Shown here in pieces: positions 26,486 through 55,935 of a stretch of 64,000 nucleotides of DNA. The translations under genes and the position numbers were made by a program. The stretch comes from Faecalibacterium sp. I4-1-79 (GTDB lineage Bacteria; Bacillota; Clostridia; Oscillospirales; Ruminococcaceae). The stretch lies in NCBI RefSeq assembly GCF_023347235.1, contig NZ_CP094467.1, positions 124,001 through 188,000 on the forward strand, in the 5' to 3' direction. The notes under the pieces are model-generated. The model saw nothing but the letters and a program-made list of their open reading frames with translations. It ran no database searches and was not told where the DNA came from. Each line of letters opens with the position of its first letter. Within the stretch, counting starts at the first letter, position 1.

Positions 26486-27028
26486 ATGAAAAACTGGAAA
26501 AAACTGCTGGCCTGCCTGCTGGTCAGCCTGATGGCACTGACCGTGTTCACCGCCTGCGATGCCAGCGTGGGTGCGCCCATGGTGCCGAAGCGCTCCACTG
26601 CTGAAAGCGCAAAGGCGCTGTGCGATAGATTCAAGGTGAGCTACAGCGAGGAGCTGAGCGACAAAGCCTATACCATCGCAAGCTGGGTCACCGACTCTTC
26701 GGTGTCCTGCGATACGAGCAAGGACAAGGACAAGACCGAGCTTTACCGCTGGGCCCATGTAGACAATGTTGTAAAAACCTATCTGGAGAAGAAGAGCTAC
26801 GCCACTGCGTTTGAAAACATGGGCATGGGCATTCTGGGCACTGATACCTTTACCCCGGGCTTTGACTGGAAGCCGGACGCCGACGACCCCTCGGACATTA
26901 TCTTTGTCCTGCCGAAGGACGGCACTTATCCCGAAGCTATGACCAAAGCGGCAGAGGGCAAAACCAAGCTGGGCGTTGCCTACGTGGTAAAGGACGGCGT
27001 AAGATACGCCGTGGTGCTGTTTGGGTAA
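26486..27028 (+). CDS. Small lipoprotein of unknown function
   Basis: A 180-residue protein with a lipoprotein signal (KKLLACLLVSLMALTVFTAC; cleavage before Cys). The mature part is rich in Lys and Asp and has no domain I recognise. AAAGGAG sits 12 bases before ATG 26486. It follows rny but lies behind a terminator, so it has its own promoter. No close partner gene is visible. Confidence 0.75.
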   Translation: MKNWKKLLACLLVSLMALTVFTACDASVGAPMVPKRSTAESAKALCDRFKVSYSEELSDKAYTIASWVTDSSVSCDTSKDKDKTELYRWAHVDNVVKTYLEKKSYATAFENMGMGILGTDTFTPGFDWKPDADDPSDIIFVLPKDGTYPEAMTKAAEGKTKLGVAYVVKDGVRYAVVLFG

Positions 27029-27039
27029 AACCATTTTAA

Positions 27040-27125
27040 ATGTGCGCCGCGTTCGCTATGCACATCAATAGCGGAAGTATGATTTAAATTTTGGGGAGCG
27101 GAACGTCTGCGGACGTTCCGCTCCC
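27040..27125 (+). repeat. Element C, copy 1 (dual hairpin)
   Basis: Stem P1 is ATGTGC (27040-27045) with GCACAT (27060-27065). After a 28-base linker with AATAGCGGAAG comes stem P2, a perfect 14-bp stem (27094-27107 with 27112-27125) closed by the loop TGCG. The usual tail TCACGGGAGGG is displaced to 27384-27394 by an inserted element. Confidence 0.75.
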
Positions 27126-27132
27126 TTGTTTT

Positions 27133-27383
27133 GGGTAGCTTGAGCGAGCGACAACCACCAGCTCCGCTGGTGGAGTAGAAAATGCTTTAGCTATAAGATT
27201 CGAGCGAAGAGAGATGACAAAGAAATTGTCATCTTAGAAGATGCACTTTGCAACATAGCTCGTTAGAGCGGTAGGGCAGGTAATGCAGATGAAAGATGCT
27301 TGCTCGTGGCCCCTTAAGGGGCTTTGCTAGTATTATGCCCTTCTAGGGCTTACTCAAGCCACCGGCTCAGCCGGTGGTTTTGA
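27133..27383 (+). mobile_element. Hairpin-rich non-autonomous element, IS200/IS605-like
   Basis: About 250 bases without a reading frame hold CCACCAG-CTCCG-CTGGTGG (27155-27173), GATGACAA/TTGTCATC (27213-27233), GCCCC-TTAA-GGGGC (27309-27322), GCCCT/AGGGC (27337-27349) and CCACCGGCT-C-AGCCGGTGG (27359-27377). GCTTGAG (27138-27144) and CTCAAGC (27353-27359) could close the whole fold. Subterminal hairpins with no target duplication are typical of IS200/IS605 derivatives. It interrupts the tail of element C copy 1. A structured RNA is the alternative reading. Confidence 0.5.
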
Positions 27384-27580
27384 CTCACGGGAGGGAGCCT
27401 TTGGCATGGCGGGAAAGTTTGCGGCGGGGGAATTACCCCCTCAGGCTCACTACGTTCGCCAGCTCCCCCAAGGGGACGCCTTTTGGCAATGCCGTAAAGT
27501 TACCCGTCACCGCTGAAGCCGTCCCCTTGGGGAAGGTGGCATCGCCGCAGGCGATGACGGAAGGGGTTCCCCACCCGTGA
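27384..27580. repeat. Repeat family A copy, mosaic of small hairpins
   Basis: It contains the family A blocks GGGAGGGAGCCTTTGGCA, GGCGGGAAAGTTTGCG, CAAGGGGACGCCTTTTGG and AAGCCGTCCCCTTGGGG, shared with copies at 29.2-29.4, 37.6, 51.7 and 60.6-60.85 kb. Internal stems include ATCGCC/GGCGAT. The whole gap 27029-27746 has no supported gene. Confidence 0.7.
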
Positions 27581-27685
27581 AAAAGTGGCTCAGAAACGCC
27601 CGCAGGCGTTTCTGAGCCACAAATTATAATAATCTTTCCGCTGATTATGCGCAAAGCAACGCGGAGCGCATTCAAAATCGTCCCA
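27571..27685 (-). repeat. Element C, copy 2 (dual hairpin)
   Basis: On the minus strand: P1 ATGCGC/GCGCAT (27647-27671) and, after a conserved linker with CAGCGGAAA, P2, a perfect 16-bp stem (27585-27600 with 27605-27620) around TGCG. The tail TTTTTCACGGGTGGGG follows. Confidence 0.8.
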
Positions 27686-27746
27686 CGCAAAAAGCAGCCG
27701 CCGCACTTTCTCGTGCAGCGGCTGCTTTGTTTGTGCTATGATGCGA

Positions 27747-28994
27747 TCAGACCTTCAGGAAAGCCGGCAGGGGCTTGCCTTCCTTGAGCCACTGGTGATA
27801 CTCGGCGGTGGCGGCAAATTCCACGTCACCGGCAGAGTTCAGGGCAGTTTCCACCGAGTCCTGCACCACGCCGATGATGAAGCCCACGCCCACCATCTGC
27901 ATGGCGATGTCGTTGGAGATGCCAAACAGCGAGCAGGCCATGGGGATCAGCAGCAGGGAGCCGCCAGCCACGCCGGAAGCGCCGCAGGCGCCCAGAGCGC
28001 TCATGGCGCTCAGCACGATGGCGGCGGGCAGGGACACCTGAATGCCCAGCGTATTGGCCGCTGCCAGCGTCATGATGGTAATGGTGATGGCGGCACCATC
28101 CATGTTGATGGTGGCGCCCAGCGGGATGGACACGGAGTACATATCCTTGTCCAGACCCAGCTTTTCACACAGGGACATATTCACGGGGATGTTGGCGGCA
28201 GAGCTGCGGGTGAAGAAAGCGGTCAGGCCGGACTCCTTCAGGCAGCGGAATACCAGCGGGTACGGGTTGCGGCGCAGGTAAACGAACATGATAAAGGGGG
28301 AAACGATCAGCGCCATGAACAGCATGGTGCCCACCAGCAGCGCCAGCAGCTTGCCGTACTGGGTAAAGATGGCAAGACCGTTGCCGGAAACGTTGGTGTA
28401 CACCAGACCCATGATGCCGAAGGGTGCCAGATTGATGATCCAGCGCACGATCTGAGAAACGGCATCGGCGGTGTTTGCCAGAAAGACCTTGGTGCTCTCT
28501 GCGCCGATGTTCTTCATGGCAATGCCGAACATACAGGCCCAGAACAGGATGCCGATGTAGTTGCCGTTCATCAGGGCGCTGACGGGGTTGGCCACAAAGT
28601 TGGTCAGCAGGGTGCTCAGCACCTCGCCCAAGCCCTGCGGGATCACGTCAGACTGTGCCGCGTCGGCCAGCACCACCGTGACCGGGAACATAAAGCTGGT
28701 GACGACCGCAATGGCTGCCGCCAGAAAGGTGGTGAGCATGTACAGCCAGATCACGGTGCCAAAGCGGCGGTCCAGCTTGGACGAGCCCTGTGCCAGTGCG
28801 CTTGCCACAATGACGAACACCAGCACCGGGGCAATGCCCTTCAGCGCACCGACGAACAGGCTGCCCAGCTCGCCTACCCAACCCGCGCCCGGCGCAACAA
28901 GCGCCAGCACCGAACCGACTGCCAGGCCGATCAGGATGCGCAGAATCAGGCTGGTCTGGTTGTATTTTGCTACAACCGCTTTCAAGGTTTTCAT
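27747..28994 (-). CDS. sstT: Serine/threonine:sodium symporter
   Basis: A 415-residue dicarboxylate/amino-acid:cation symporter family protein that takes up Ser and Thr with Na+. Eight or more membrane helices plus re-entrant loops; family motifs include the Ser-rich loop GGSLLLIPMACSLFG and NMDGAAITITIMTLAAANTLG. AGGAGTG precedes ATG 28994. It is a single-gene transcript between repeat fields. Confidence 0.93.
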   Translation of the reverse strand: MKTLKAVVAKYNQTSLILRILIGLAVGSVLALVAPGAGWVGELGSLFVGALKGIAPVLVFVIVASALAQGSSKLDRRFGTVIWLYMLTTFLAAAIAVVTSFMFPVTVVLADAAQSDVIPQGLGEVLSTLLTNFVANPVSALMNGNYIGILFWACMFGIAMKNIGAESTKVFLANTADAVSQIVRWIINLAPFGIMGLVYTNVSGNGLAIFTQYGKLLALLVGTMLFMALIVSPFIMFVYLRRNPYPLVFRCLKESGLTAFFTRSSAANIPVNMSLCEKLGLDKDMYSVSIPLGATINMDGAAITITIMTLAAANTLGIQVSLPAAIVLSAMSALGACGASGVAGGSLLLIPMACSLFGISNDIAMQMVGVGFIIGVVQDSVETALNSAGDVEFAATAEYHQWLKEGKPLPAFLKV

Positions 28995-29065
28995 ATCGTA
29001 ACACTCCTCTTACACTGTACGCCCAGCGCGTACATTTTCCTGTTTCTTATACAAGAACAGTTGTC

Positions 29066-29075
29066 ATTATAGCAC
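29066..29075 (-). promoter_or_regulatory. Extended -10 promoter of sstT
   Basis: On the minus strand TGCTATAAT (TATAAT at 29066-29071) is an extended -10 box; no good -35 box is seen. Confidence 0.45.
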
Positions 29076-29194
29076 ATACGGCAAAAAAGAGGAAGTGTTT
29101 TCAGGCATTTTGACGCCTCAAATCACGTTTTTTGTAACCTTTTGCAAAATTGCCTTGAAAACTGTACTTGTATAAAATACAGTTTTGCGGTTTT

Positions 29195-29402
29195 GACGAG
29201 GGAAACCCTCTCAGTCATCGCTGCGCGATGCCAGCTCCTCCGAGGGGGGAGCTTTAACTCCCTCAGTCAAAACCTATCGGTTTTGACAGCTCCCTCTGGG
29301 AGGGAGCCTTTGGCACGGCGGGAAAGTTTGCGCCTGAAGTGCAAAGCTTGCGGGCGTGTCTGCTCCCCCTTGGGGGAGCTGTCGCGCAGCGACTGAGGGG
29401 CT
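29195..29402. repeat. Repeat family A copies
   Basis: Two head-to-tail blocks with GCTGCGCGATG, CTCCCTCTGGGAGGGAGCC and CCCCTTGGGGGAGCTGTCGC. They are similar to 37583-37645 and 51720-51768. A separate hairpin AAAACTGTA/TACAGTTTT lies just before (29158-29186). No gene is supported between 28995 and 29851. Confidence 0.65.
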
Positions 29403-29404
29403 AC

Positions 29405-29745
29405 GAATGGAGAAGCGAAAAAAGCGTTAAAGCGATAGCGCCGACTGGCGCAGCGCTAGCTTTTTTGTGCTTCGACTTCTTCTTTAGGATTGTCAAGGGC
29501 GTGCAGCCCTTGGAAACGGGTTGCGGCACCCAGCATCCGCTTCGTGCCTTGGGCGGCACTCGCGTCTTGCTGGCCGCTGCCCCAACAACTCCTCCCTGTT
29601 TCCGCCGCTGGCGGCGGTCGTCGTCGTTGCTGTTGCGGGGTGGGTGGAGTCCAGAGGTAGGGAGGGGGGAGTCGGAACACCCCTCCCTGCCTCTGGCCCA
29701 GCGGAGCGTCCTTGCACGCTGACGGCAGGCAGAAAGTTGCCATAG
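29405..29745 (+). repeat. Repeat family B, copy 1, with inserted 114-bp module
   Basis: The outer parts (29405-29517 and 29632-29745) match the reverse complement of 51499-51716, where they are contiguous. Here they are split by the module at 29518-29631. Confidence 0.8.
29518..29631 (+). mobile_element. 114-bp module B2, copy 1
   Basis: From GGGTTGCGGC to GTCGTTGCT, 114 bases. It matches 51900-52013 in inverse orientation at equal length with only a couple of differences that I can find. It contains the palindrome CCGCCGCTGGCGGCGG. It has no coding capacity of note. Confidence 0.75.
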
Positions 29746-29779
29746 CAGCAACGCTGCAACTGCCGTTCACCGTTACGAC

Positions 29780-29830
29780 CCCACCCATGAAAAAAGGTTC
29801 TGAAAAGCCCGCAGACTTTTCAGAACCACA
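29780..29830 (-). repeat. Element C, copy 3 (P2 and tail only)
   Basis: On the minus strand GGTTCTGAAAAGTC (29814-29827) - TGCG - GGCTTTTCAGAACC (29796-29809) form P2 with a G-T pair near the loop. The tail TTTTTTCATGGGTGGGG follows. The P1 half is missing; the GNAT gene ends there. Confidence 0.65.
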
Positions 29831-29851
29831 AAATTAAAATTATTTTCCCGC

Positions 29852-30364
29852 TTACCCCAGCTGGCTCTGGGTCAGGGACATCCGCTGGTAGGCAATGCGC
29901 GGGGTGCCGTCCGCCACATGGATGATGCCGCAGCGGGTAAAGCCCTCGCTTTCCAGCAGGTGCTGCATCACCGTGTTGTCGGCGTGGGTGTCGGCGCGCA
30001 GGCTCTCGCAGTGCTCCAGACACCACTCCACCACTGCTTTGCCCACGCCCTTGCTCTCGCCCGCCGAAGCCAGCCGGTGCAGCGTGCCGTAGGGCAGGGT
30101 GTCGTTGAGCCACTGCCCGTCCTCAATGACCTTGTAGGTGGGGTCCTCGCCAAGGACAAAGGCAAACACCGCCTGCATCTGGCCGTTTACCATGTACACG
30201 AACAGCCGGTTGGTGTCGATATCCTCTTCCAGCAGCTCCGGGCTGGGGTAGTTGTCCCCCCACTGGGTGGGGTTGCCGTTTTTCGCCATGAAATCCCGCG
30301 CACGGGCATAGACTTCAAGGATCTTTGCCATATCCGCTCTTACTGCTCCGCGAAACATATCCAC
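29852..30364 (-). CDS. GNAT-family N-acetyltransferase
   Basis: A 170-residue GNAT fold protein: N-terminal RGAVRADMAKILEVYARAR, acetyl-CoA loop region RLASAGESKGVGKAVVEWCLEHC (central part of motif A) and C-terminal ESEGFTRCGIIHV. It transfers an acetyl group to an amine on an unknown small molecule or protein. GGATGAG precedes ATG 30364. A type C repeat abuts its stop codon. Confidence 0.85.
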   Translation of the reverse strand: MDMFRGAVRADMAKILEVYARARDFMAKNGNPTQWGDNYPSPELLEEDIDTNRLFVYMVNGQMQAVFAFVLGEDPTYKVIEDGQWLNDTLPYGTLHRLASAGESKGVGKAVVEWCLEHCESLRADTHADNTVMQHLLESEGFTRCGIIHVADGTPRIAYQRMSLTQSQLG

Positions 30365-30460
30365 TCATCCTCTCTTGCCCGCGCCCTGCCGCGCGGGGTA
30401 CATTTATTTCAGTATAACACAATTTTCCATAAAGCACCAGATTTTTCTCCATTTTGCGGC

Positions 30461-30500
30461 AAAAACAGACCGCCGTGCGCGGGGCGGCAGCACGGCGGTC
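30461..30500 (-). terminator. Terminator of the AraC-type gene
   Basis: GACCGCCGTGC (30468-30478) pairs with GCACGGCGGTC (30490-30500). On the minus strand it ends in TGTTTTT. Confidence 0.75.
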
Positions 30501-30525
30501 GGGGGCGGCAAATCAAAAGAGGGCT

Positions 30526-30924
30526 TCATGCGGTGGGGCGGCGAGGAGCGACGCCGGTGCGCACCAGCCGGTACTCCCGGGGGCTCAGGCCGTAGCGCTC
30601 GTGGAACAGGCGGTAGAAGTAGCTGGTGTTCTCGTATCCCACCTGCGCAATGATCTGCTGGATGTTCAGATCGCTGCGGCGCAGCAGCCGCGCGGCAGTT
30701 TCCATGCGGTGCTTTTGCAGCAGTTCCTTGTAGGTGCGCCCGGTCTGGGCGCGCACGCACTCGCTGACATACGCCAGCGAAACACCATAAGCCCTTGCCA
30801 CATTGGAAAGGCTGGCCTCACGATAATTTTGGGTGATCTCCTGCAGCGCCGCCTGCACCAGTGCATCGCGGCTCACAGCCTCCATGCGGGCGGGCTGCGG
30901 GGAGCGTTCAAGCTTTGCCATCAT
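30526..30924 (-). CDS. Minimal AraC-family DNA-binding protein
   Basis: A 132-residue protein made almost only of the two-helix-turn-helix AraC domain (SNVARAYGVSLAYVSECVRA ... IIAQVGYENTSYFYRLFHE). Most family members carry an extra sensing domain, so this one is either a stand-alone regulator of the SoxS size or a truncated gene. GGAGGA 8 bases before ATG 30924 supports the start; the longer frame to 30990 is Pro-rich and has no site. Targets are unknown. Confidence 0.8.
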   Translation of the reverse strand: MMAKLERSPQPARMEAVSRDALVQAALQEITQNYREASLSNVARAYGVSLAYVSECVRAQTGRTYKELLQKHRMETAARLLRRSDLNIQQIIAQVGYENTSYFYRLFHERYGLSPREYRLVRTGVAPRRPTA

Positions 30925-31106
30925 TGTATCTGTCCTCCGTAACGGTGCGGCTGGCGGGGGACTGGGGGAAGCCGGAACCACCCGCCGCACGATAACTGCG
31001 GAGCCCTTTCCGGGCTCTTATACCTTGAATACGAATCACCCGCCGCAAACATTGCAGAAAAGATAAAAATTTTTTAGTCAATTTTCGTTGTAGAGGGAAA
31101 GAGGAC

Positions 31107-31225
31107 GATTTTGAATGCGCTCCGCGTTGATCTGCGCATCAATAGCGGAAGAATTATTTTAAATTTCGGGTTTCAGGAAAGTCTGCGGACTTTCCTGAAA
31201 CCCATTTTCACGGGAGGGGTTCCCA
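31107..31225 (+). repeat. Element C, copy 4 (complete)
   Basis: The cleanest copy. P1 ATGCGC (31115-31120)/GCGCAT (31134-31139); linker CAATAGCGGAAG then an A/T-rich run; P2 a perfect 16-bp stem (31168-31183 with 31188-31203) closed by TGCG; tail TTTTCACGGGAGGGG. No gene lies in the gap 30925-31310. Confidence 0.85.
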
Positions 31226-31228
31226 CAG

Positions 31229-31264
31229 AAAAAGGCTGCCCGCCAATTGGCAGACAGCCTTTTT
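31229..31264 (-). terminator. Terminator of the pst-phoU operon
   Basis: AAAAAGGCTG (31229-31238) pairs with CAGCCTTTTT (31255-31264); it can work in both directions and closes phoU on the minus strand. Confidence 0.8.
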
Positions 31265-31310
31265 CAGAAGAAAATAAGGAAAACACGCGCCCAAAGGGGC
31301 AGAGTGAGTA

Positions 31311-31979
31311 TCAGAACATGCTTTCGTCCTTGTAGCGCCCGGTGCGCACGAACTGCACCCACTCGGCTACATTCACGGCGTGGTCGCCGATGCGTTCCAG
31401 ATACTTGATGACCATGAGCAGATCCAGCGCGGCGTCCACCTTGGCGGGGTCGGCGGCGATCTCCTGTGCCAGCGTGTGCTTGATGGCGTTGAAGTCGTAG
31501 TCCACGGCGTCGTCTGCGGCGATGACGCGGCGGGCGGCGATCTCATCCTCGGCGGTCAGGGCATCCATGGCGTCTAAGATCATCTGGTAGGCCTTGCGTC
31601 CCATGGCAATAGCCTGACTGACAGCGGGGTCGCCCTCCTTGCGCACGGTGACGAGATGCGGGATGATCTCCGCGATATCCGAGGCGTGGTCGCCCATACG
31701 CTCGATGTCGGTGACTACCTTCATGGCGGTGGAAATGTGGCGCAGATCGCCCGCCACCGGCTGCTGGCGCAGCAGCAAGGTCATGCAGCGGTGCTCAATG
31801 TCCCGCTCCATGTTGTTGATGCGGTCATCCCCCTGCACGATCTTCTGGGCGGCTGCGGTGTCGGCGGTGCACAGCGCTTCCAGCGCGTTCTCCACGGCCT
31901 CGGCGGCGTTCTGCCCCATCTCCACCAGCGCGGCCTTAAGAGACTCCAGATCGCTGTCGTATTGTTTGCGAATGCTCAT
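31311..31979 (-). CDS. phoU: Phosphate transport regulator PhoU
   Basis: A 222-residue protein of two PhoU three-helix repeats (ERDIEHRCMTLLLRQQPVAGDL and YLERIGDHAVNVAEW mark the two metal-binding halves). It links the Pst transporter to the phosphate two-component system and limits uptake. GGAGGAAC precedes ATG 31979; the longer frame to 32075 overlaps pstB. Last gene of the operon, 19 bases after pstB. Confidence 0.95.
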   Translation of the reverse strand: MSIRKQYDSDLESLKAALVEMGQNAAEAVENALEALCTADTAAAQKIVQGDDRINNMERDIEHRCMTLLLRQQPVAGDLRHISTAMKVVTDIERMGDHASDIAEIIPHLVTVRKEGDPAVSQAIAMGRKAYQMILDAMDALTAEDEIAARRVIAADDAVDYDFNAIKHTLAQEIAADPAKVDAALDLLMVIKYLERIGDHAVNVAEWVQFVRTGRYKDESMF

Positions 31980-37656: not shown

Positions 37657-38718
37657 ATGAAAAAAGTTATTCTGACCGGCGACCGTCCCACCGGCCGCCT
37701 GCACGTTGGCCACTATGTCGGCTCTCTGAAGGAGCGGGTGCGGCTGCAGAATACCGGCGAATATGACGAGATCTTTATCATGATCGCCGACGCGCAGGCG
37801 CTGACCGACAACGCCGACAACCCGGAGAAGGTGCGCCAGAACATTCTGCAGGTGGCACTGGACTATCTGGCCTGCGGTCTGGACCCCAACAAGGTGCACA
37901 TCTTCATCCAGTCCATGGTGCCCCAGCTGACCGAGCTGAGCTTCTACTACCAGAATCTGGTCACCGTCAGCCGTCTGCAGCGCAACCCCACCGTGAAGAG
38001 CGAGATCCAGATGCGCAACTTCGAAGCCAGCATCCCGGTGGGCTTCTTCTGCTACCCCATCAGTCAGGCAGCCGATATCACCGCCTTTAAGGCTACCACC
38101 GTGCCCGCCGGTGAGGATCAGAAGCCCATGATCGAGCAGTGCTGCGAGATCGTGCACAAGTTCAACTCTGTCTACGGCGAAACGCTGGTAGAGCCCGAGA
38201 TCGTTCTGCCCCAGAACGCCGCCTGCCTGCGTCTGCCCGGCATTGACGGCAAGGCCAAGATGAGCAAGAGCCTTGGCAACTGCATCTATCTGTCCGAGGA
38301 GCCGGAGGAGATCGAGAAGAAGGTCAAGTCCATGTTTACCGACCCCAACCACCTGCGTGTGCAGGACCCCGGCAAGGTGGAGGGCAACCCGGTGTTCATC
38401 TATCTGGACGCCTTCTGCCGCCCGGAGCACTTTGCCGAGTTCTGGCCGGAGTACCAGAATCTGGACGAGGTCAAGGCGCACTATCAGCGCGGTGGTCTTG
38501 GCGATATGAAGGTGAAAAAGTTCCTGAACAGCGTCATGCAGGCTGAGCTGGAGCCCATCCGCACCCGCCGCAAGGAGTGGGAGCAGCGCCTGCCCGAAGT
38601 GGTGGAGATCCTCAAGGAGGGCAGCGCCTACGCCGAAAAGACTGCTGCCGCCACACTGGACGAGGTGCGCAAGGCCATGCGCATCGACTACTTCGACAAC
38701 GATAACCTGCTGAAATAA
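37657..38718 (+). CDS. trpS: Tryptophanyl-tRNA synthetase
   Basis: A 353-residue class I synthetase that charges tRNA-Trp. HIGH-like motif HVGH (residues 15-18) after GDRPTGRL, and KMSKS in KAKMSKSLGN. AAAGGAG precedes ATG 37657; the frame from 37618 uses repeat sequence. The gene is monocistronic. Confidence 0.97.
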   Translation: MKKVILTGDRPTGRLHVGHYVGSLKERVRLQNTGEYDEIFIMIADAQALTDNADNPEKVRQNILQVALDYLACGLDPNKVHIFIQSMVPQLTELSFYYQNLVTVSRLQRNPTVKSEIQMRNFEASIPVGFFCYPISQAADITAFKATTVPAGEDQKPMIEQCCEIVHKFNSVYGETLVEPEIVLPQNAACLRLPGIDGKAKMSKSLGNCIYLSEEPEEIEKKVKSMFTDPNHLRVQDPGKVEGNPVFIYLDAFCRPEHFAEFWPEYQNLDEVKAHYQRGGLGDMKVKKFLNSVMQAELEPIRTRRKEWEQRLPEVVEILKEGSAYAEKTAAATLDEVRKAMRIDYFDNDNLLK

Positions 38719-51498: not shown

Positions 51499-51716
51499 AC
51501 GTTTCTGCCTGCCTTCAGCGTGCAGGGACGCTCCGCTGGGCCAGAGGCAGGGAGGGGTGTTCCGATTCCCCCCTCCCTACCTCTGGACTCCACCCACCCC
51601 GCAACGGGCCAAGGGCTGCTCGCCCTTGACAATCCTAAAGAAGAAGTCGAAGCACAAAAAAGCTAGCGCTGCGCCAGTCGGCGCTATCGCTTTAACGCTT
51701 TTTTCGCTTCTCCATT
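51499..51716 (-). repeat. Repeat family B, copy 2 (uninterrupted)
   Basis: The reverse complement matches 29405-29517 joined directly to 29632-29745, so the 114-bp module is absent here. Neither copy has a reading frame that looks coding. Confidence 0.8.
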
Positions 51717-51719
51717 AAA

Positions 51720-51768
51720 AGCCCCTCAGTCGCTGCGCGACAGCTCCCCCGAGGGGGAGCGAGCGCCC
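51720..51768 (-). repeat. Repeat family A mini-copy
   Basis: CAGTCGCTGCGCGACAGCTC followed by CCCGAGGGGGAGC matches the reverse complement of 29365-29400. Confidence 0.7.
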
Positions 51769-51824
51769 GCCCGCAGCGCTGCGCTTTCGCAGAAAGCGGC
51801 GCTGCAAATGCCGTTTCCCTCTAC

Positions 51825-52045
51825 GACCCCTCCCGTGAAAATAGCGTTTGGAGCGCTCCAAACGCGAAAATATAAATATTATTTCCGCTGAACATGGCTA
51901 GCAACGACGACGACCGCCGCCAGCGGCGGAAACAGGGAGGAGTTGTTGGGGCAGCGGCCAGCAAGACGCGCGTGCCGCCCAAGGCACGATGCGGATGCTG
52001 GGTGCCGCAACCCGGAAGAAGCGGAAGCCATTCCAAATCGTTTTG
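51825..52045 (-). repeat. Element C, copy 5, with 114-bp module in the P1 loop
   Basis: On the minus strand P1 is ATGGCT/AGCCAT (52026-52031 with 51894-51899), separated by a short loop plus the 114-bp module. After CAGCGGAAA comes P2 as a 22-base palindrome (GCGTTTGGAG/CTCCAAACGC, loop GC core and no TGCG), then the tail TTTTCACGGGAGGGG. The whole gap 51334-52228 holds repeats and no supported gene. Confidence 0.75.
51900..52013 (-). mobile_element. 114-bp module B2, copy 2
   Basis: Inverse orientation and same length as 29518-29631 with only a couple of differences. It sits inside the P1 loop of element C copy 5. Confidence 0.75.
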
Positions 52046-55713: not shown

Positions 55714-55729
55714 GGTAAGCTCCTTTTAC

Positions 55730-55935
55730 GATCAAAAATGGCCGCCGCGTGCGCTTTGGCCATATTCAGAGGAATGATTCTTTTTAATTCAGGAACCCGA
55801 ACCGCCTGCGGAGCTTGTCGGGGTAAAACCCCTCCATCTGCTTACGCAGACCGCTCTGCCACTTAAAAGCCCCACTGGGGCTTTCATTGCTGCGCAAACG
55901 CGGGCATTTCGGGTTCCACTTTTCACGGGAAGGAC
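55730..55935 (+). repeat. Element C, copy 6, with element D in the P2 loop
   Basis: P1 ATGGCC (55738-55743)/GGCCAT (55758-55763). P2 arms GGAACCCGAA (55792-55801) and TTCGGGTTCC (55908-55917), with GCCTGCG and GGGC at the inner edge. Element D (55811-55902) lies exactly where the loop should be. The tail ACTTTTCACGGGAAGG follows. Confidence 0.75.
55811..55902 (-). mobile_element. Element D, copy 2
   Basis: The reverse complement matches 6921-7013 with a few changes. It carries AAAGCCCCAGTGGGGCTTTT and is bounded by the P2 stem of element C copy 6. Confidence 0.7.

Follow-up and report, generated by a model that had tools for sequence, protein, structure and literature searches.

A dispersed two-hairpin repeat of Faecalibacterium whose hairpins differ as whole units at matched sites

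Introduction

How can a repeat keep its stems paired while the bases of those stems change from copy to copy? The question is raised by a locus in Faecalibacterium sp. I4-1-79. We analysed a stretch of 64 kb (the window, G000:C1:124001-188000), where G000 is the organism's own genome, a single contig of 3,227,950 bases. A preliminary description had reported a dispersed element with two hairpins there and had read its paired changes as selection on folded RNA. We argue that the fold is maintained, and that whole hairpins may well be the units that change.

Structure of the element

The unit reads, in order, a GACGATTT end, a first hairpin (P1), an A/T linker, a second hairpin (P2) and a TTTTCACGGG tail, about 118-145 bp in all. 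P1 is a hairpin of 6 bp. P2 has about 16 bp and usually a UNCG-type TGCG cap. The covariance model of the element has 117 positions and both hairpins. An alignment of 29 own-genome copies mostly has (G/A)ACGATTT at the 5' end and TTTTCACGGGAGGGG on the 3' side of P2. Its P1 types are ATGCGC/GCGCAT, ATGGCT/AGCCAT, ATGCCC/GGGCAT and ATGTGC/GCACAT, to which the wider set adds ATGGCC/GGCCAT. The P1 loop contains CCGC, and the linker is AGCGGAA followed by A/T-rich DNA.

All six copies reported for the window are recovered by the covariance model, with corrected coordinates (Table 1). The matches of copies 5 and 6 themselves span 51826-51927(-) and 55727-55814(+). Copies 1 and 2 belong together as a tail-to-tail pair whose halves are separated by about 430 bp of other repeats, and the linker of copy 3 begins at the stop codon of the neighbouring gene. 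Some statements of the preliminary description need adjusting. It listed copy 3 with the other dual-hairpin copies, and this copy has no P1. It took the P2 arms to be unrelated in each copy, while P2 types do recur: there are 86 distinct left arms in 116 rows, and the commonest is used 8 times. Its TGCG cap is indeed shared by most copies (98 of 116 rows), with the P2 of copy 5 as an exception. The window has one extra match, at 38686, which resembles a terminator hairpin, either an ordinary one or a decayed one.

Table 1. Copies of the two-hairpin element in the window, with the two hairpins of the type copy
Feature	Position	Strand	Remark
Type copy of the dual-hairpin element	31104..31220	+	Covariance match, 138.7 bits
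P1 hairpin of the type copy, ATGCGC/GCGCAT, loop TCCGCGTTGATCT	31115..31139	+	Pair counts
P2 hairpin of the type copy, GGGTTTCAGGAAAGTC-TGCG-GACTTTCCTGAAACCC, then ATTTTCACGGG	31168..31203	+	
Copy 1, left half of a tail-to-tail pair	27029..27141	+	Immediately 3' of stop codon TAA
Copy 2, right half of the 27029 pair	27568..27682	-	P1 and P2 unlike those of the left half
Copy 3, P1-less (linker, P2 and tail)	29778..29882	-	Abuts the stop codon of ORF 29852-30364(-)
Copy 5, other repeat in the P1 loop	51826..52045	-	P2 is a cap-less perfect palindrome
Copy 6, other repeat inserted in the P2 apex	55727..55935	+	

When 4 window copies were folded as RNA, every one formed P2, and the best structure of only 1 contained P1 (z-scores -4.8, -5.0, -5.1 and -1.8). 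Other pairings of the CCGC/GCGG stretches compete in these folds. One can imagine a pseudoknot between the P1 loop (TCCGC) and the linker (GCGGA). The exact combination occurs in 121 of 196 copies, yet 23 of the 196 tabulated copies have GCCGC/GCGGA and 13 have TCCGC/AAGGA. Since these variants are not compensated and the covariation test finds no double change in this pairing, the pseudoknot is unsupported.

Pairs and nested repeats

Single copies are the majority. Tail-to-tail pairs account for 26 of the 126 own-genome copies, which makes 13 pairs, each with under 700 bp from start to start. In the 10 pairs listed the ends are inverted (GACGATTT...AAATCGTC, with variants), and several of these pairs have a central GGGGTCGTAA/TTACGACCCC-like stem. 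The two halves never share the same P2 in the 9 pairs scored in G000 or the 13 in G006, which is unsurprising given the diversity of P2.

Two other repeat families sit inside the hairpins. The first (..GCAATGAAAGCCCCAGTGGGGCTTTTAAGCGGCAGAGCGG..) is about 105 bp long, and 7 of its 9 contexts place it in the P2 apex; one of the others is unreadable because the locus ends, and one is elsewhere. We see it at about 55806-55905 in the window and at L171, L190, L035, L198, L202 and L219. At one matched site the P2 of G006 has the insert and that of G000 is uninterrupted. An element that targets hairpin apices is a possible reading of this repeat. The second family ends in GGCGGCGGTCGTCGTCGTTGC. In 7 of 10 contexts its junction with the element falls in the P1 loop or right arm, and in one further context (L168) it falls at the linker. 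It is seen at about 51906-52020 in the window and at L127, L133, L004, L029, L172 and L197. Besides these, abundant nested repeats, one of them long and marked by GGAGAAGCGAAAAAAGCGTTAAAGCGATAGCGCC and another reading ..CCCTCTCAGTC..GCCAGCTCCCCC.., come after the element or break into it at 27320-27570, 29600-29780 and 51700-51820 of the window and at many fetched loci. The intergenic DNA around the element is a mosaic of repeats.

The gene adjoining copy 31107 is PhoU (Pfam PhoU), and relatives were collected through it, which gave mostly Faecalibacterium records. The site of this copy is empty in G026 (L148). In G006 and G030 it holds another repeat family (L146, L153), and in G003 (L150) a copy with another P2 together with other repeats. 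Across these four genomes the site is a local insertion hot spot.

Copy number and spread

BLAST with the 31107 copy gives 48 rows in its own genome. The covariance model gives at least 147 matches there at E<=0.01 among the best 150 candidates scored, the weakest of which are partial or doubtful. A second profile search, of the fetched DNA, has 126 copies in the own genome and 117 in G006. The preliminary description had proposed to run a covariance model built from the copies against Faecalibacterium and relatives, and this does find many further copies. At E<=0.001, with the best 60 candidates of each genome and stricter filters, 14 of 61 genomes have a match. At least 60 copies are present in 8 of the 31 Faecalibacterium genomes searched, 4 more have 1-4 matches and 19 have none. 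Among the low counts, G007 and G021 have real copies, and the single matches of G016 and G025 are P2-only remnants. Two matches outside the genus (G042, G053) look like chance terminator hairpins. A survey of 197 genomes of the family, drawn evenly, with the best 18 candidates each at E<=1e-6, matches only the own genome and G007. That is 1 of 125 genera, with three own-genus genomes among the rows listed. Neither the 61-genome nor the 197-genome search has a credible copy in another genus. This distribution implies that the element is restricted to one clade and expanded in one part of the genus.

It must be noted that a region with element remnants (L127, G000:2219860-2223510, with L068 and L070) is about 97% identical between G000 and G016 or G025. 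This is far above the other stretches compared, and the region looks horizontally shared.

The preliminary description knew no named family with this shape, and Rfam has no match to it either. At the gathering score the 64-kb window matches two tRNAs only. At E up to 1 the stretch 26900-31400 has 9 matches, all below the gathering score and all to eukaryotic or cyanobacterial families. Open-licence literature on Faecalibacterium palindromes, MITEs, RNA motifs and repeats holds no description of the repeat among the matches listed.

Position behind genes

Several features of the element belong to one strand. A TNCG loop is found in 185 of 197 good copies, and its antisense mirror CGNA in 0 of 197. 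TTTT stands behind P2 in 184 of these copies, TTTTT in only 61. Copies lie behind genes: in 51 of 126 no more than 30 nt separate the start of the copy from a co-oriented stop codon, or the two overlap, and a further terminator ahead of P2 would find little space there. By a simple codon-usage gene caller, of which only the distances to stop codons are dependable, the called upstream gene is co-oriented at 82 of 123 copies, at a median of 12.5 nt from the stop. The same caller puts 43 of 118 copies in convergent context against 7 of 53 in the window (p 0.002), and 8 of 118 in divergent context against 7 of 53 (p 0.24).

In its letters and place, P2 has the form of an intrinsic terminator: a stable stem-loop, a U run and a position behind genes. 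Many copies behind genes probably end transcription. A pure terminator role would predict an orientation bias between co-directional genes, and the single copies there have none (34 sense, 33 antisense). One site between convergent genes holds a tail-to-tail pair in G028 and one half with another repeat in G030, and in G010, G012 and G007 a plain terminator-like hairpin stands there. P2-like hairpins occur at 14 of 39 sites without a full copy, a count that includes some full copies and that we do not use as proof.

Covariation of the two stems

The covariation set is 29 own-genome copies, which are the 30 BLAST loci minus L022, where P1 is broken. Two of them (L001, L018) are window copies. 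Of its 781 pair cells 98.2% are standard pairs, and 500 shuffles give 80.0%. The pairs that change on both sides number 17 against 11.7 shuffled, and the cells with such a change 143 against 41.8. Double changes affect 3 pairs of P1, 14 of P2 and 0 of the loop-linker pairing. Four of the five measures are reached by none of the 500 shuffles. The fifth, further pair types, is unexceptional (29 against 28.3, reached by 226 of 500 shuffles). Structures slid along the alignment have only 33-47% standard pairs.

P1 and P2 both covary, as expected from the earlier claim that the stems keep pairing while their bases change. Changes no more paired than chance would have counted against that claim, and the 98.2% lies well above the shuffled figure. 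It is well supported that in P1 and P2 the fold is maintained rather than the sequence. The stronger part of the claim was selection on folded RNA, and for RNA as the form under selection the support is only partial. The one-strand UNCG-type loop, the TTTT behind P2 and the position behind stop codons argue for RNA. The few G-U pairs argue against a purely base-by-base RNA account. Moreover, much of the apparent compensation consists of whole-hairpin changes to types that other copies also have, so the copies are not independent witnesses of pair-by-pair covariation.

Hairpin differences at matched sites

Copies in G000 and G006, both complete genomes, were matched by up to 400 bp of upstream flank, and these flanks are about 95% identical. 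There are 42 full pairs, of which the 39 with P2 on both sides were scored and 3 were dropped. An earlier scoring by exact strings (69 matched pairs, 8 without P2) let the arm length vary and so overstated the differences. It is replaced here for G000-G006.

The distances between P2 left arms are bimodal. Over 14 positions the distance is 0 in 21 pairs, 1-2 in 7 and 5-12 in 11, with none at 3-4. Where P2 is wholly different (11 pairs), the right-arm changes mirror those of the left arm, exactly in 9 pairs and with one position off in 2. P1 also differs on both arms in 11 of 39 pairs, at 2-3 left-arm positions and at least 2 right-arm positions. Both hairpins differ at 4 of the 18 differing sites, P2 only at 7 and P1 only at 7, so that in 14 of 39 pairs one hairpin differs without the other. 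Two of the 7 P1-only sites also carry one compensated P2 pair. Differences of this kind, hairpin by hairpin at matched sites, are new here.

Sites with a swapped P2 are alike in their 5' parts, down to private variants (G000:2870479 with G006:411043), and G003.61:76613 shares the private variants of the kept part and agrees with G000:2870479. Sites with a swapped P1 agree over P2, and this agreement runs on downstream in 6 of the 7 that were aligned. The P2-only sites 2535655 and 2401455 are ambiguous. At site 2407001 G006 has an extra linker-P2-tail module ahead of the P2 that G000 has alone, and this difference is an addition or loss in which the old P2 remains. At 9 of the 11 P2-swapped sites, one or both of the P2 types are seen again in a further fetched copy of the genome that carries them. 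We infer that the differences at matched sites arose by exchange.

Linkage within the element was examined for the four main P1 types, with 72 copies in G000 and 74 in G006. P1 has no association with the inner half of P2 (p 0.59 in G000, 0.68 in G006), the outer half gives p 0.28 and 0.36, and the first three P2 bases give p 0.53 and 0.048. An earlier run agrees. Linkage does hold between P1 and its own loop and the adjoining four bases (p 0.0032 or less), between the inner and the outer half of P2 (0 of 5000 shuffles reach it) and between P2 and its neighbouring bases (p 0.0002 to 0.026). The P1 and P2 types are statistically unlinked in both genomes though the hairpins are about 30 bp apart.

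Route of hairpin change

We lean towards the view that the element is a BIME/MITE-like repeat with a terminator-type P2, and that exchange over short tracts, or template switching, renews its hairpins. It would be a dispersed, intergenic, non-coding palindromic repeat of one Faecalibacterium clade that occurs singly or in tail-to-tail pairs. P2, with its UNCG-type cap and T run, would terminate the gene whose stop codon adjoins upstream. Copies would trade whole hairpins (both arms, and for P1 also the loop), with tracts some tens of bases long. The route may be template switching during replication or ectopic gene conversion over short tracts, and stems with a mismatch would be restored to full pairing. 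A change that fits such repair is the lone C-G to G-C double transversion that separates the P2 of G028.66:36433 from that of G030:307715. Independent point compensation would then not be the main mode of hairpin evolution. Termination activity, the enzymes involved and past transposition are parts of this scenario that we infer. Speaking against it are the shortness of the T run (TTTTT in fewer than a third of good copies) and the finding that P1 is in the best RNA fold of only one copy in four.

The first rival is an ordinary structured-RNA or terminator family under base-by-base selection, where a mutation is followed by its compensation and no exchange is needed. There are changes of just this kind. 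Single compensated pairs occur at two matched sites (G000:2896670/G006:385535 and G000:2589513/G006:2396793). One site has three states, C-G in G030, C.C in G000 and G-C in G006, which look like repair in progress; the C.C mismatch is the intermediate that this rival expects. The loop and T run are also strand-specific, as it would have them. The bimodal P2 distances, with their gap at 3-4 of 14, do not fit it, and nor does the linkage of the P1 loop to the P1 arms.

G-U pairs also count against it: they are rarer than in ordinary terminator-like hairpins. The 1540 P2 cells of the 197 good copies (110 distinct P2s) comprise 1522 Watson-Crick, 6 G-U, 7 A-C and 5 other cells, and P1 and P2 together have 12 G-U and 15 A-C; the P2 finder for good copies demands near-perfect stems, which biases these mismatch counts low. 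A broader set of 116 distinct rows, from the best 118 of 150 aligned, has 1764 Watson-Crick, 18 G-U, 10 A-C and 27 other cells in P2 (1819) and 643, 12, 6 and 13 in P1. The control is 78 distinct ordinary terminator-like hairpins from the same loci, with 33 G-U and 13 A-C in 940 cells. The G-U rate is 0.4% in good copies and 1.0% in the broader set against 3.5% in the controls (Fisher p 2e-9 and 8e-6), where the filters differ between sets in that control hairpins have at most one non-pair and other repeats were not filtered from them. The rarity of G-U in the element is supported.

The ratio of G-U to its antisense mirror A-C is 12:15 in good copies against 33:13 in controls (p 0.026). In the broader set it is 30:16, which does not differ from the controls (p 0.65) and by itself leans towards G-U (p 0.054), a point in favour of the base-by-base account. 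A sense-strand bias of G-U over A-C is therefore possible. The preliminary description had pointed to a G-T pair in copy 3 that pairs on the sense strand only. That pair exists (T.G beside the cap), and as a rule for the whole set such a bias is possible rather than demonstrated. A DNA-level cause of the pairing is likewise no more than possible. Taking these points together, we consider base-by-base selection rather unlikely as the whole account.

A second rival is independent re-insertion. Sites adjoining stop codons would be hot spots that receive different copies of a mobile element in each lineage. The site of copy 31107, empty or differently filled among four genomes, fits this, and so do the 4 of 39 pairs in which both hairpins differ. 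Parallel insertion may explain those 4. It does not explain the 14 pairs that keep one hairpin while the other differs, nor why P1-swapped pairs are alike over P2 and mostly beyond it. As a general explanation re-insertion is unlikely. No clear target-site duplication is visible by eye at the compared sites, several of which are not truly empty.

Third, a structure-specific process on single-stranded DNA (HUH/Y1-type or similar) could cut and join at the feet of the hairpins and so move P1 and P2 as cassettes, rather as in attC recombination. Whole hairpins with both arms do differ, G006:2175770 has an extra linker-P2-tail module before the P2 that G000 has alone, and two other repeat families sit in the apices of P1 and P2. 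Against this, no enzyme is linked to the element, and no core resembling that of attC was noticed. The Y1 transposase (PF01797) is absent from G006 and G030, each with at least 60 copies, so it was rejected as the driver. It is present in 10 of 21 genomes, some of them without the element. We find this process quite improbable. An IS200-like Y1 transposase match does lie at G000:C1:2540218-2540574 (L235), a few hundred bases from copy 2540817, with no sign of linkage to the element.

A bolder version, a genome-wide pool of hairpin cassettes in which a dedicated structure-recognising process moves P1 or P2 among more than 100 intergenic sites, is a long shot. If it were true, a site would keep its terminator-type fold while its sequence turned over far faster than by point mutation, and the genus would have an integron-like shuffling system for non-coding hairpins.

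Relation to known repeats

Exchange or template switching in a BIME/MITE-like repeat has to be compared with what is known of such repeats. REP, BIME and REPIN repeats, including the CGTC-tagged kind, are described as high-copy intergenic palindromes, often inverted dimers and also with unlike halves. They favour convergent and downstream positions, and the CGTC kind has no dedicated transposase (PMC3733652). The element resembles them in being high-copy, intergenic and palindromic, in its inverted dimers (26/126) and in favouring convergent sites (43/118 vs 7/53). Its outer end is mostly (G/A)ACG, or CGT(C/T) on the other strand, several bases from P1 (84 copies). That it reads CGTC/CGTT there and that P1 starts with AT/AT pairs may recall the CGTC kind. 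Unlike that kind, its CGTC is several bases off the stem, its P2 is UNCG-capped and its hairpin types are interchangeable. A REP unit has 20-40 bp and one hairpin, against about 118-145 bp and two hairpins here. Faecalibacterium and Firmicutes are absent from the main text of PMC3733652. The GTAG kind of REP has a linked RAYT/Y1 transposase, and none is tied to the element.

MITEs are short, non-coding elements with inverted ends, inserted between genes. The element is likewise short, non-coding and intergenic, and in paired form it has terminal inverted repeats. It differs in that no clear target-site duplication is seen and no parent transposon is found, its ends are about 8 bp and singles predominate.

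Template switching is a published route by which RNA hairpins are made and repaired (PMC8794818). It could account for perfect stems, multi-base compensation and few G-U intermediates. In PMC8794818 it is deduced within the histories of RNA genes, whereas the hairpin types of the element also recur across dispersed copies. Finally, bcr1 of Bacillus cereus and BOX of Streptococcus pneumoniae are listed as stem-loop families in PMC2267715. They too are intergenic repeats with conserved folds, and we liken them to the element by description, not by sequence. BOX is modular. We know of no whole-hairpin exchange at matched sites for either. Because its unit size, its double hairpin and its hairpin-wise exchange differ, and Y1 is missing from two high-copy genomes, the element is not a member of a named family.

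Implications

Hairpin turnover can be traced here at dozens of matched sites between genomes that are about 95% alike. The same set of sites offers hairpins that differ outright, mutations on one side only and repaired pairs. It has long been argued whether two-arm changes of perfect stems come from slow compensation, template switching or conversion, and this becomes directly testable. At the very least, strong covariation is no sure sign of base-by-base selection on RNA when the repeat is dispersed. In Faecalibacterium, a main genus of the human gut, many gene ends are probably provided by the repeat family described here.
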